A stretch of DNA of 64,000 bases from Komagataeibacter xylinus. Lineage in GTDB: Bacteria > Pseudomonadota > Alphaproteobacteria > Acetobacterales > Acetobacteraceae. A program made the translations under genes and the position numbers. Position 1 is the stretch's first letter; each line of letters starts with the position of its first letter. Positions 31,969 through 35,087 of this stretch are shown piece after piece. The notes below the pieces were generated by a model. That model was not told the DNA's origin. It saw nothing but the letters and a program-made list of their open reading frames with translations, and ran no database searches. The DNA lies in assembly GCF_031081985.1 (NCBI RefSeq), contig NZ_JARWSK010000002.1:248001-312000 (forward strand), given 5' to 3'.

Positions 31969-32074
31969 AGGTCACGCCATGCCTGACCGCAAGGACTATA
32001 TGGGCACGCAGGGGTTACATTTCCTCTCTCTTAACGTCTTGCCATTCTCCCCGCCCCGCCCGCATTATGTACGC

Positions 32075-32713
32075 ATGATACCCACGCCCTCCGCGCCGGA
32101 ACCGACACGGGAACGCAGTGAACGCTCTTCTGGCCGCAAGCTGGTTGTGGTGGGGCTGATCGCGGCCGTGGTGGCGGGCGGCGGCCTCGGCGCAGGCGGC
32201 TTCCTGACCCCGCAGGAGAGCGGCAGCGGCAGCCAGACACCCCCCGTCGCAGCCGAGGCTGGCGGCGGCAGGGGCAATGGCGGCAATCACCTTACGCTCA
32301 ACGCGCCGGTGCAGGGCAGGCCCGACATGATGGGCGAGATGCCCATGATCTCGCCCGAGCGCGCGGCGGAAATGCTGCGCCAGACAAATTTCACATTGCA
32401 GCAGCAGGCCGAGATCATGGCCGCGTTGCGCCGACGCGAGATCATACTGGCTGACATGCCGATGTATGACATGGCAGGCGGCGGCGCGGTCGTGAACGTG
32501 GAGTCCCTCGGGCTCGTGCAGACCGTGCATCTCGGCCCGCAGCCCCGCAGCGTGATCCTGCCCATCCGCATAGCAGGCAATGTGTCGATCACGCCCGTGG
32601 GCGATCCGGGGCCGATGGGCGTGCATGCCGGGGCGGTGTTCGTGCCGGGGCCAACGCCGCTGCCGGTGCTGATGCGCGGGAGCAATCTTGTCATCGGGGT
32701 TGTGGTACAATGA
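32075..32713 (+). CDS. bitopic membrane protein, first gene of AAA+ membrane operon
   Basis: 212 residues from ATG 32075; the open frame extends far upstream but overlaps rimP and nusA. Charged cytoplasmic N-terminus (RERSERSSGRK), one TM (about 22-43, LVVVGLIAAVVAGGGLGAGG), a Gly/Ser-rich linker, a Met-rich helical stretch (PERAAEMLRQTNFTLQQQAE), and a beta-rich C-terminal domain (VHLGPQPRSVILPIRIAGNV, LPVLMRGSNLVIGVVVQ). Predicted to expose its C-terminus to the periplasm. No family recognised. The stop overlaps the AAA+ gene start (ATGA), so the two are made together. Confidence 0.75.
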   Translation: MIPTPSAPEPTRERSERSSGRKLVVVGLIAAVVAGGGLGAGGFLTPQESGSGSQTPPVAAEAGGGRGNGGNHLTLNAPVQGRPDMMGEMPMISPERAAEMLRQTNFTLQQQAEIMAALRRREIILADMPMYDMAGGGAVVNVESLGLVQTVHLGPQPRSVILPIRIAGNVSITPVGDPGPMGVHAGAVFVPGPTPLPVLMRGSNLVIGVVVQ

Positions 32714-33981
32714 AGCCGCTTTATCCGATCCTGATGGAACGGGTCGTGCCGATCGCCATGGTCATTTTCCTGGTGCTCGGCAGTTTTCAGGCCGCCATGG
32801 CGTTGCATCTTTCGCTCGCCAGCATACGGCATTTCATGGAATGGTGCGCACCGGCCTATCCGGTCATAGCGGCGGCAAGCGCCCTGCTGGCGCTGAGCGG
32901 GCTGTGGTTCGAGGGCCGGGCCGAGAAACTCGCCCGCAAGGGAATCCGACGCAGACGGGGATGGATGATGGACGTACTGGCCAGGCTGACCAATCGTAGC
33001 GCGCTTGAAGAGATGCTGGCGCGCGAACAGAAAGAAACCGTGATCGACGCCGAGGAACTCGCCGCCAGCCTGCGCGCGCGCGTGATCGGCCAGGATCAGG
33101 TGTGCGAGGACGTGGCAACCCAGCTGCGCCGCCGCATGGCGCTGCAGGTGCGCGGCAAGCCGGTGGGCATCTTCCTGCTTGCCGGGCCGCCGGGCACGGG
33201 CAAGACCTATCTTGCCAAGCAGCTTGCCCGCCAGCTCGACCGCCCGCTGCTCAACTTCGACATGACGCAGATGAGTTCGCCGCATGCCGCAACGCAGCTG
33301 TTCGGCTCACCCAAGGGGTATGTCGGCTCGGACACCTACGGCAAGCTGACCGGCGGCCTGAAGGAAAAGCCCGACGCGGTGGTGCTGCTCGATGAAATCG
33401 AGAAGGCGCACCCCGATGTGTTCAAGAAATTCCTGACCGCATGGAATGACGGGCACGTGACCGAGGCCTCGACGGGGCAGCAGATCTCGACCGTGCGCTG
33501 CATCTTTATCCTGACATCAAACATCGCCACCGATGCGCTGTCCGAGATCGCGGACCGGCTGGCCGATGAGCCTGACAAGATGCGCGCCGAGTCGGTCGAG
33601 GCGCTGCGCCAGGCAGGCTTCGCGCCCGAAGTGCTCAACCGCCTGGACCGCATCTTCGTGTTCCGCCCGCTCGAGGGGCTGGACATCGCCCGCGTTTCCG
33701 CGCTGGAAATCGAGTCGATGATCGACAGCTATGGCCTCAAGGTCGAGACCGGGGGCATCGACCCTGCCCTGCTGTTCGAGGTCATGCGCCGCCAGGACCG
33801 CATGGGGCCTGCCGCCAGTGCGCGCGATCTGGCCCGCTCGATCGAGGACATGATCAGCGACTCGCTCATCACCGCCCGCCAGCAGGGCGCCAAGCTGGTG
33901 CGCGTGGTGCAGAACGAAGATGGCATCGTGGCCGAAATCGCGGACAAGAGCGACGCGCAGCAGGCCCGGATCAGTTCCTGA
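32710..33981 (+). CDS. membrane-anchored single-ring Clp/ClpB-D2-like AAA+ ATPase
   Basis: 423 residues. Two TMs at about 11-32 and 49-67 place the AAA+ module in the cytoplasm. Module: Walker A GPPGTGKT (159-166), pore loop GYVG (203-206), Walker B VVLLDE (224-229), sensor 1 Asn271, Arg finger Arg311 in LNRLDR, sensor 2 Arg372. The DEIEKAHPDVFKKFL and FGSPKGYVGSDTYGKL stretches are those of the ClpA/ClpB second ring. A conserved aromatic pore loop implies it threads polypeptides. The N-domain and first ring of ClpA/B are missing, and I see no ClpP-docking IGF/LGF loop. Neighbours on both sides are membrane proteins, pointing to membrane protein remodelling or extraction. Confidence 0.88.
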   Translation: MKPLYPILMERVVPIAMVIFLVLGSFQAAMALHLSLASIRHFMEWCAPAYPVIAAASALLALSGLWFEGRAEKLARKGIRRRRGWMMDVLARLTNRSALEEMLAREQKETVIDAEELAASLRARVIGQDQVCEDVATQLRRRMALQVRGKPVGIFLLAGPPGTGKTYLAKQLARQLDRPLLNFDMTQMSSPHAATQLFGSPKGYVGSDTYGKLTGGLKEKPDAVVLLDEIEKAHPDVFKKFLTAWNDGHVTEASTGQQISTVRCIFILTSNIATDALSEIADRLADEPDKMRAESVEALRQAGFAPEVLNRLDRIFVFRPLEGLDIARVSALEIESMIDSYGLKVETGGIDPALLFEVMRRQDRMGPAASARDLARSIEDMISDSLITARQQGAKLVRVVQNEDGIVAEIADKSDAQQARISS

Positions 33982-34047
33982 CCCATGGCCGCGCTGTTCC
34001 GCCCTGCCCCCGTGGCCTCCCGCATGGCAAAAGGCATGGCCTGCTGA

Positions 34048-34989
34048 ATGTCCGCTTTTTCGCGCCTCTGGCATCGTGCGCCGCTATGGCGGCTTTGCCT
34101 GTATCTTATTTTGCCCTTCGTGGTGCTGACGTTCATTTTCCCGCCAGCCTATCTTACGCGCAGGCTGCCCCGGCTGGCGCAGATCGCCACGGCCATCCAT
34201 AACCGCCTGGGCATGCAGGACGCACCGGCCGATGGCGACCAGGCCGGTGGCGGCGGCCCGGGCGATGGGGTCGTGACCATGATGCCCATGACCGACCGGC
34301 TGACCAAGGCCATTCCGTTTGCCGGGCGCATCCTGCCGCTGCCCGCAGGCGTATGGCACCCGATCATCAACGTGATCGAAGGCCCGCATGGCGAATTGCT
34401 GGAAAATGTCCTGGTGCGGGTGCAGGGCCATGTCGTGACCGGCCTGATCGTGGCCAAGGGCACGACACAGCCGGTACCGGACGTGGCCAGCCCGCCGATG
34501 GACATAGAATGCCATGACGACCGCAACTACATGTCGCATATCGGGGCCAGTCACCCGCCCATGACGGAATGCTGGTTCACGCGTCTGGTTGATCCGGCCT
34601 CGATCAACCACATGAACGTCATTGCCGGGCGACTGCAGCAGGAAGGCTTCGTGCTGCCGCCGGTCATGCTCAGGGCGAACTGGGTCAACAGCACGCCCGC
34701 CACCGATGACAACATGAATGCGGAGACGGTGACGATCTATCTCAACCCCGTCAATGTCAACGACACCAAGATCCTGCGCTCGCCTGATTTCTGGACCAAG
34801 GACGCGCTGGCGCAGCAACCGGCAGCGGCCACCTTCGTCAAGCTCATGAATACATGGATGACAGGCTGGGCGCCGGTGCTGCATGATGGCTTCAACAGCG
34901 ACATGCTGGCCTCGAGTGACGAGCAGCGCGCCCGGCTTTCGGCTGACCCGGCAGCGCCCCGCCCCGGCGAAGGCAACCCGCTGGACTGA
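34048..34989 (+). CDS. membrane-anchored extracytoplasmic protein, third gene of AAA+ operon
   Basis: 313 residues. One TM at about 13-36 (LWRLCLYLILPFVVLTFIFPPAYL), then a soluble domain with two Cys (in DIECHDD and TECWFTR, possibly a disulfide) and NHMNVIAGRLQQEGFVLPPV, NAETVTIYLNPVNVND. The acidic/Pro tail is disordered. No family recognised. The ATG follows directly on the TGA of a 20-codon frame at 33985-34047, so coupling is possible; no clear Shine-Dalgarno. A palindromic repeat closes the operon 18 nt downstream. Confidence 0.75.
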   Translation: MSAFSRLWHRAPLWRLCLYLILPFVVLTFIFPPAYLTRRLPRLAQIATAIHNRLGMQDAPADGDQAGGGGPGDGVVTMMPMTDRLTKAIPFAGRILPLPAGVWHPIINVIEGPHGELLENVLVRVQGHVVTGLIVAKGTTQPVPDVASPPMDIECHDDRNYMSHIGASHPPMTECWFTRLVDPASINHMNVIAGRLQQEGFVLPPVMLRANWVNSTPATDDNMNAETVTIYLNPVNVNDTKILRSPDFWTKDALAQQPAAATFVKLMNTWMTGWAPVLHDGFNSDMLASSDEQRARLSADPAAPRPGEGNPLD

Positions 34990-35007: not shown

Positions 35008-35087
35008 AAAGTTCCTGGGTACCGCCTTTTTTCAAAAAGGCGGCATTCTTCTGAAGCTTTTTGAAAAAAGCTTCACCAAAAACTTTT
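35008..35087. repeat. palindromic gene-end repeat, copy 4
   Basis: Full copy (GAAAGTTCCTGGGT end, ACCGCC-T6-CAAAAA-GGCGG hairpin, GAAGC-T5-G-A6-GCTTC hairpin, CACCAAAAACTTT end). The following ATTGTTTTTTATCAAT resembles the sequence next to the terminal repeat at 53094-53110, so this is a decayed longer element. Confidence 0.85.

Follow-up and report, generated by a model that had tools for sequence, protein, structure and literature searches.

An operon of acetic acid bacteria coding for a predicted membrane-anchored, single-ring Clp-type AAA+ ATPase and two bitopic partners, one of which is missing at loci with a dead motor

The subject of this analysis is a three-gene Komagataeibacter operon, g1-g2-g3, on the plus strand of a 64-kb window of Komagataeibacter xylinus (the window being the whole stretch of DNA analyzed; L-numbers denote fetched loci and G-numbers genomes). 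Its open reading frames (ORFs) were confirmed at 32075..34989, as the original prediction had it, with a g1 stop codon overlapping the g2 start by 4 nt in an ATGA at 32710-32713, and the operon is oriented divergently from rimP; individual features are collected in Table 1. All three are taken as real genes because the ratios of nonsynonymous to synonymous substitution rates (dN/dS) are low versus four relatives, three from Komagataeibacter and one from a neighboring genus: 0.02-0.09 for g2, 0.14-0.46 for g1 and 0.20-0.35 for g3. The identity of g3 to named relatives is 98 and 94% (K. xylinus), 87% (K. melomenusus) and 82% (K. nataicola).

The central gene, g2, codes for an ATPase whose single AAA+ module matches Pfam AAA_2 with 131.4 bits (cut-off 27) and is complete, having Walker A and B, sensor 1, Arg finger and sensor 2; the anticipated combination of two transmembrane (TM) segments with one complete module of the ClpA/ClpB second-ring type is borne out, all motifs being found. 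The TM segments were measured on L035, whose g2 is 100% identical to that of the window by tblastn, and across the 34 aligned rows the 19-residue hydropathy reaches at least 1.5 in 34/34 for TM1 and 29/34 for TM2. Since positively charged residues follow TM2 (a mean of 8 Lys/Arg within 25 residues over the 34 rows), the ring is predicted to be cytoplasmic, with the domains of g1 and g3 predicted to be periplasmic. The best NCBIfam matches are ClpB (178.9 bits) and ClpA (167.5 bits), and the best PDB matches are Clp/Hsp104 chains. By its motifs g2 is a Clp/HSP100 ATPase of the D2 type, nearest to the second ring of ClpB/ClpA: it has the same motif order as the second ring (D2) of ClpB/Hsp104 and ClpA, including the GYVG pore loop, but has one ring, lacks the N domain, D1, the middle domain and the ClpP loop, and has two added N-terminal TMs. 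It scores far under the equivalog cut-offs of both families (1232.1 bits for ClpB, 993.15 for ClpA), and likewise under those of ClpV/TssH of type VI secretion (144.9 bits, cut-off 884.95) and of the FtsH model (18 bits, cut-off 600). No IG[FL] ClpP-docking loop was found at the ClpA position, where the organism's own ClpA has IGF; of the 34 aligned rows, 10 contain [ILV]G[FL] strings, none of them where the ClpA loop lies. In line with the earlier claim that a protease of its own is absent, Pfam and NCBIfam scans of g1-g3 detected no protease domain, and no peptidase is among the 25 Pfam families listed.

To our knowledge, bacterial membrane-anchored AAA+ unfoldases without a protease have hardly been described. 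The familiar FtsH combines an N-terminal pair of TMs with an AAA+ ring in the cytoplasm, an arrangement predicted for g2 as well, but belongs to another AAA clade and carries a zinc protease, which g2 lacks. Mitochondrial CLPB/SKD3 has one ring. That ring is, like g2, of the ClpB-D2 type and protease-free, as indicated by PDB matches and by PMC9934407. Unlike g2, CLPB/SKD3 has an ankyrin domain in place of the TM anchor, resides in the intermembrane space and has no operon partners.

The g1 protein has a short, variable cytoplasmic tail and a conserved domain predicted to be periplasmic, ending mostly in VIVQ/VVVQ-like residues; 27 of its 32 rows reach 1.5 or more in best 19-residue hydropathy. 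It has no Pfam match at E <= 1 and no above-cut-off family match in NCBIfam, PADLOC or PHROGs. Neither its lone NCBIfam match (14 bits against a cut-off of 100) nor the hits of a profile search against solved structures (E 0.15 or worse) are believed. In 230 genomes of the class, a g1 profile recovered no convincing relative outside the family: besides the window there were 8 matches. The best of these (L117, E 9e-5) spans 51 profile positions; none of the ORFs read there is g1-like, and we regard the match as a chance one. The remaining ones have E 0.003-0.007.

The g3 protein (best 19-residue hydropathy at least 1.5 in 29 of 36 rows) combines an N-terminal module, made up of an LWxRAPLWR motif and its TM, with a predicted periplasmic domain marked by PLPxGxW, whose two invariant cysteines would fit an oxidizing compartment. 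No family match was found in Pfam (E <= 1), NCBIfam, PADLOC or PHROGs. Weak matches of its N-terminal segment to FAM155A in the solved-structure search (E 0.02-0.16) are not believed. The periplasmic domain has no sequence match to a solved structure at E <= 1, and compared with proteins of the Mog1/PsbP-type fold (Mog1, PsbP, CyanoP, LpqN, Tsi3) its identity is 5-8%. Thus, the view that g1 and g3 each have one TM and an extracytoplasmic domain outside known families stands, there being no believable secretion, conjugation, protease, phage or defense match in these searches.

In the Acetobacteraceae the trio stays together. Among 150 genomes of the family, g2 was detected in 35 (profile, E <= 1e-50) and g3-type matches in 39 (E <= 1e-5; 37 with the g3 sequence as query), while a larger draw from the order gave g3-type matches in 139 of 299 genomes. 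Directly downstream of g2 lies g3 in 35/35 family genomes (the window and 34 fetched loci), being broken in one, G126; the suggested check of whether the genes remain linked therefore found no ATPase without its neighbors there. The g3-type matches without g2 come from four genomes: in G049 the contig begins inside g3, and in G011, G063 and G076 the matches are weak. The unit adjoins rimP in 29 of the 34 fetched loci, and the order g1-g2-g3 is also kept in five loci (L065-L068, L073) without rimP or nusA in the fetched stretch. The proposal of a self-contained operon is supported. The ATGA overlap recurs in 26 of the 34 fetched loci with g1 found (23/29, plus L048, L050 and L051 of another five); the g1 genes of these last three and of L058 were recognized by eye among the ORFs and then aligned. 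Left out of the counts were L070 (G126; g2 start and g3 broken), L069 (contig starting inside g3) and L035-L038, near copies of the window that are intact and have g1; L070 was kept in the NusA tree and scored as not dead. In L070, L150 and L151 g3 is split over reading frames, by assembly error or decay, and in L070 the start region of g2 is not in frame. Open full-text literature searches, with most subscription journals outside their coverage, found no paper on this operon.

At some loci the ATPase motifs are lost. Thirty rows of the 34-row g2 alignment (window included) have intact motifs, allowing for conservative substitutions (GFVG in L043, for example). The other four (L056, L059, L062, L063) are dead: the pore loop is lost and Walker B altered, with the Gly-Lys of Walker A kept; three of them have lost the Arg-finger position as well, and the sensor 1 Asn is still present in L063. 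In all four, the gap of ~300-350 nt between rimP and g2 has no g1-like ORF, and a g1-profile search of the fetched 15 kb gave no believable match. A further 20 loci added 17 intact motors, all with g1, and three dead ones (L147, L148, L159), none with g1; the damage in L147/L148 is partial, the pore loop being gone and the Walker B acidic pair altered with NRLDR kept. Over the total of 54 operons, g1 accompanies 47/47 intact motors (one g1 being frameshifted) and 0/7 dead ones, and the aromatic pore loop is present in all 47 intact motors. Beside 7/7 dead motors g3 keeps its LWxRAxxWR, and the dead g2 keeps its hydrophobic N-terminus. Five changes are required to place the dead state on a 39-genome NusA tree; for three of these there is a well-supported intact sister (L063 with L064; L167+L168 with L057; L169 with L174), while L062 and the L056/L059 pair are on less certain branches. 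A single origin of the dead state in the first four was rejected by an earlier 29-row tree. Between L147 and L148, dN/dS is 0.053 for g2 (TM part 0.08, AAA part 0.04) and 0.058 for g3. As it is under purifying selection in this one measurable pair, on which the case for selection rests, the dead g2 is by this measure a pseudo-ATPase and not debris.

Beyond the family, the g2 architecture was encountered once. A plasmid of Microvirga sp. VF16 (pMVF16-3) codes for an ATPase that is 46% identical to g2 over residues 15-403 and has two TMs. An unannotated 63-aa ORF (L141:9220-9411), 10 nt behind the ATPase gene, has an RLWxxAxxWRW-TM segment and matches only the N-terminal segment of g3 (profile positions 4-51, E 5e-7; hhalign probability 95 over 32 columns). 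The locus lies near insertion sequence elements and an FRG-domain gene. Because that ORF matches only this part of g3, the core of the system likely consists of the ATPase and the LWxRAxxWR-TM segment, with g1 and the g3 periplasmic domain as additions. Used as queries, the Microvirga ATPase retrieved only itself at E <= 1e-40 and the 63-aa ORF only itself above noise. The plasmid collection gave 1478 records with a g2 match, and among the best 20 only that of Microvirga (H1) covers the TM region; H2 proved to be a full ClpA-like ORF, H8 codes for an ATPase of 964 aa with Hsp20 and ftsH genes next to it, and g3 had no match in this collection. In 142 genomes of the class (E <= 1e-20), the g2-profile matches listed besides the window start at profile position 89 or later, without the TM region, and most of these lie in frames of at least 700 aa, as for ClpA/ClpB. 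At phylum level, a search of 398 genomes (E <= 1e-55, with scoring of up to four candidates in each) recovered just two, the window genome and another member of the Acetobacteraceae. The phage collection gave 145 records with ClpB-type matches, and none of the best 10 starts before query residue 68; viral contigs held no relative of g2 or g3.

The periplasmic domain of g3 has a distribution of its own, being found in 9 of 239 genomes outside the family. The free proteins, among the ORFs listed, look secreted and are without the LWxRAxxWR segment. Such free PLPxGxW proteins were seen in Alphaproteobacteria at L071, L072, L106 and L110-L115; no Pfam or NCBIfam model covers the domain in the 8 proteins scanned, and the L113 protein carries a SHOCT tail. 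The ORF adjoining the gene in L111, L112 and L114 looks FecR-type by our reading of it (not a family search). With the TM segment alone beside the Microvirga ATPase and the periplasmic domain free elsewhere, g3 is, judged from these alignments, a composite in which the N-terminal TM segment is fused to a domain that otherwise occurs free and secreted.

We propose that the three products of the operon work together as a machine in the inner membrane of acetic acid bacteria. In this model g2 would assemble into a hexameric ring on the cytoplasmic side, held in place by a TM bundle in which TM1 and TM2 of g2 would be joined by the LWxRAxxWR TM segment of g3. By GYVG threading, this ring would draw a polypeptide out of the membrane, or off its face, through the pore and, because g2 has neither a ClpP-docking loop nor a protease domain, would release it unfolded or extracted without proteolysis. 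The g1 protein would be the client of the motor or a client receptor, and therefore useless once the motor stops; since loci with a dead motor keep g3 but have no g1, our reading is that g1 depends on a running motor and that g3 and the g2 TM scaffold have a motor-independent job. The task of the g3 periplasmic domain would need the g2 scaffold and not ATP-driven threading, for which reason g2 could survive as a constrained pseudo-ATPase. That the unit is a membrane-anchored, protease-free unfoldase or dislocase, and g1 the client or client receptor that depends on its motor, has in our view about an even chance of being correct. Of the earlier suggestion that the ATPase pulls or remodels membrane substrates, protein unfolding or extraction holds up as the economical reading, and nothing seen speaks for lipid reshaping; g1 and g3, earlier treated as like partners, are indeed both bitopic but are not equivalent, g1 going missing with the dead motor and g3 being a composite that is kept. 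A more sweeping version, to which we lean less than half-way, posits an undescribed unfoldase family with a minimal form of ATPase and 63-residue single-TM micro-protein (LWxRAxxWR). In acetic acid bacteria the micro-protein would have acquired, by fusion, a secreted domain that resembles a sensor, and another bitopic protein would have become a dedicated client; about 5 times independently, as this client disappeared, the motor would have turned into a pseudo-ATPase, retained by selection where that can be measured.

Several observations weigh against this interpretation. The hexameric state of g2, threading and the role of g1 are inferred from what is known of the family. The 20 further loci were hand-picked from the 139 genomes with matches, covering small genomes and lower scores, and the absence of g1 in the seven dead genomes applies to the 6-15 kb fetched at each locus. 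In the dead pair L147/L148 the AAA part is looser (dN/dS 0.043) than in intact pairs (0.011-0.015), which is expected for a part that changed its role, and in L056/L059 synonymous sites are saturated (proportions of nonsynonymous and synonymous differences, pN 0.32 and pS 0.78). In L057 (G101) the motor is intact and g1 frameshifted, which suggests, if not a sequencing error, that g1 can go first; L147/L148, with g1 and the motor motifs lost, are its sister lineage. The Microvirga locus has no g1, so that not every active motor of this type needs it, and that case is one record with an unannotated small ORF.

Among the alternatives, an unlikely one is mechano-signaling or gating, with the ring switching the envelope-sensing periplasmic domains of g1 and g3 by ATP and without threading, g1 being the output. 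Both partners do expose conserved domains, that of g3 is elsewhere secreted and beside the FecR-like genes mentioned above, and loci with a dead motor lack g1; yet the operon holds no regulator, and the aromatic pore loop in 47/47 intact motors argues for threading. The Clp-type ring with its pore loop would suit an anchored degradation machine in which g2 works with ClpP or another soluble or membrane protease and g1 and g3 act as substrate adaptors, and membrane-anchored ring proteases such as FtsH do exist; the absence from g1-g3 of a protease domain, and from g2 of a counterpart to the IGF loop of the organism's own ClpA, makes this decidedly improbable.

A torsin-like ATPase regulated by assembly, whose bitopic partners are activators and not clients, has very little to recommend it. 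Torsins with LAP1/LULL1 resemble g2 in their single Clp/HSP100-related AAA+ module, membrane association and bitopic partners, and g2 has a weak match to PF06309 (24.6 bits, cut-off 27). According to PMC5425593, LAP1/LULL1 are type II membrane proteins, and torsins lack aromatic pore loops and obtain the Arg finger from the activator, whereas g2 has its own GYVG and NRLDR. Torsins also lie in the lumen of the endoplasmic reticulum and nuclear envelope, against a ring predicted to be cytoplasmic and partner domains predicted to be periplasmic in the present case. Falling below the ClpB, ClpA, ClpV and FtsH score cut-offs and lacking these torsin features (as given in PMC5425593), g2 is, on sequence grounds, a variant within the Clp/HSP100 D2 type. 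The least probable of the alternatives, to which we assign hardly any weight, is an anti-phage or other conflict system: the AAA module of g2, and that module only, resembles PADLOC PDC-M37B (E 5e-25) and DolB (E 3e-21) and the Microvirga copy is on a plasmid, but g1 and g3 match no PADLOC family at E <= 0.01, with the partner genes of Dodola/PDC-M37B thus not in evidence, no relative occurs in viral contigs, the unit sits beside rimP-nusA-infB in 29/34 fetched loci, dN/dS of g2 is low, and the pseudo-ATPase form is retained under selection.

Clients of membrane-anchored unfoldases are usually hard to find. If the proposed unfoldase is real, the motor-dead lineages would amount to natural, repeated knock-outs that single out g1 as motor-dependent and the function of g3 and the TM anchor as motor-independent, and would illustrate how, in nature, an unfoldase can become a scaffold. 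Direct predictions would follow for industrially used bacteria such as Komagataeibacter, making the machine experimentally approachable.

Table 1. Features of the g1-g2-g3 operon and its flanks (window coordinates; membrane topology is predicted)
Feature	Position (nt)	Strand	Residues	Basis or remark
Candidate promoter CTTGCC-N19-CATTAT	32038..32068	+		Hexamer conservation; 6 nt before g1 ATG
g1, bitopic, 212 aa	32075..32713	+		TM at residues ~23-41
g1 periplasmic domain	32339-32710	+	~89-212	Conserved
g2, single-ring AAA+ ATPase with two TMs, 423 aa	32710..33981	+		Pfam and motifs
g2 TM1	32743-32799	+	12-30	Hydrophobic segment
g2 TM2	32848-32904	+	47-65	Hydrophobic segment
g2 Walker A GPPGTGK	33184-33204	+	159	Motif
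g2 pore loop GYVG	33316-33327	+	203-206	Motif
g2 Walker B VVLLDE	from 33379	+	224	Motif
g2 sensor 1 LTSN		+	268	Motif
g2 Arg finger NRLDR		+	310	Motif
g2 sensor 2 SARDL		+	370	Motif
g3, bitopic, 313 aa	34048..34989	+		One N-terminal TM
g3 N-terminal module, LWxRAPLWR motif and TM	34048..34155	+	1-36	Motif in 36/36 operon g3 rows
g3 periplasmic PLPxGxW domain	~34270-34947	+	~75-300	Invariant Cys155, Cys175
Two terminator-type hairpins	35022..35075 (35022-35043, 35052-35075)	+		Fold z -5.6 for the stretch

Upstream of g1, the hexamers CTTGCC and CATTAT of the candidate promoter are invariant in 9/9 aligned upstream regions from two genera, with a spacing of 18-19 nt, and CTTGCC-N16-19-CATTAT has a single match in the whole window. 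In the alignment of both genera, 6-7 nt separate the -10-like CATTAT from the g1 ATG, which suggests that the g1 mRNA may be leaderless. A loose RpoH-type pattern (CTTGNN-N15-20-CATNNT) had no convincing match before the organism's own clpA or clpB. At the other end, the operon is closed by a gene-end repeat, as first described: the second of the two hairpins after g3 contains GAAGCTTTTTGAAAAAAGCTTC. By its recurrence this palindrome is a terminator repeat family of the Komagataeibacter window genome, with 8 sites in the window (18572, 25762, 35053, 46602, 54060, 57035, 59236 and 60923), counted with up to 2 mismatches, against 0 expected by shuffling.

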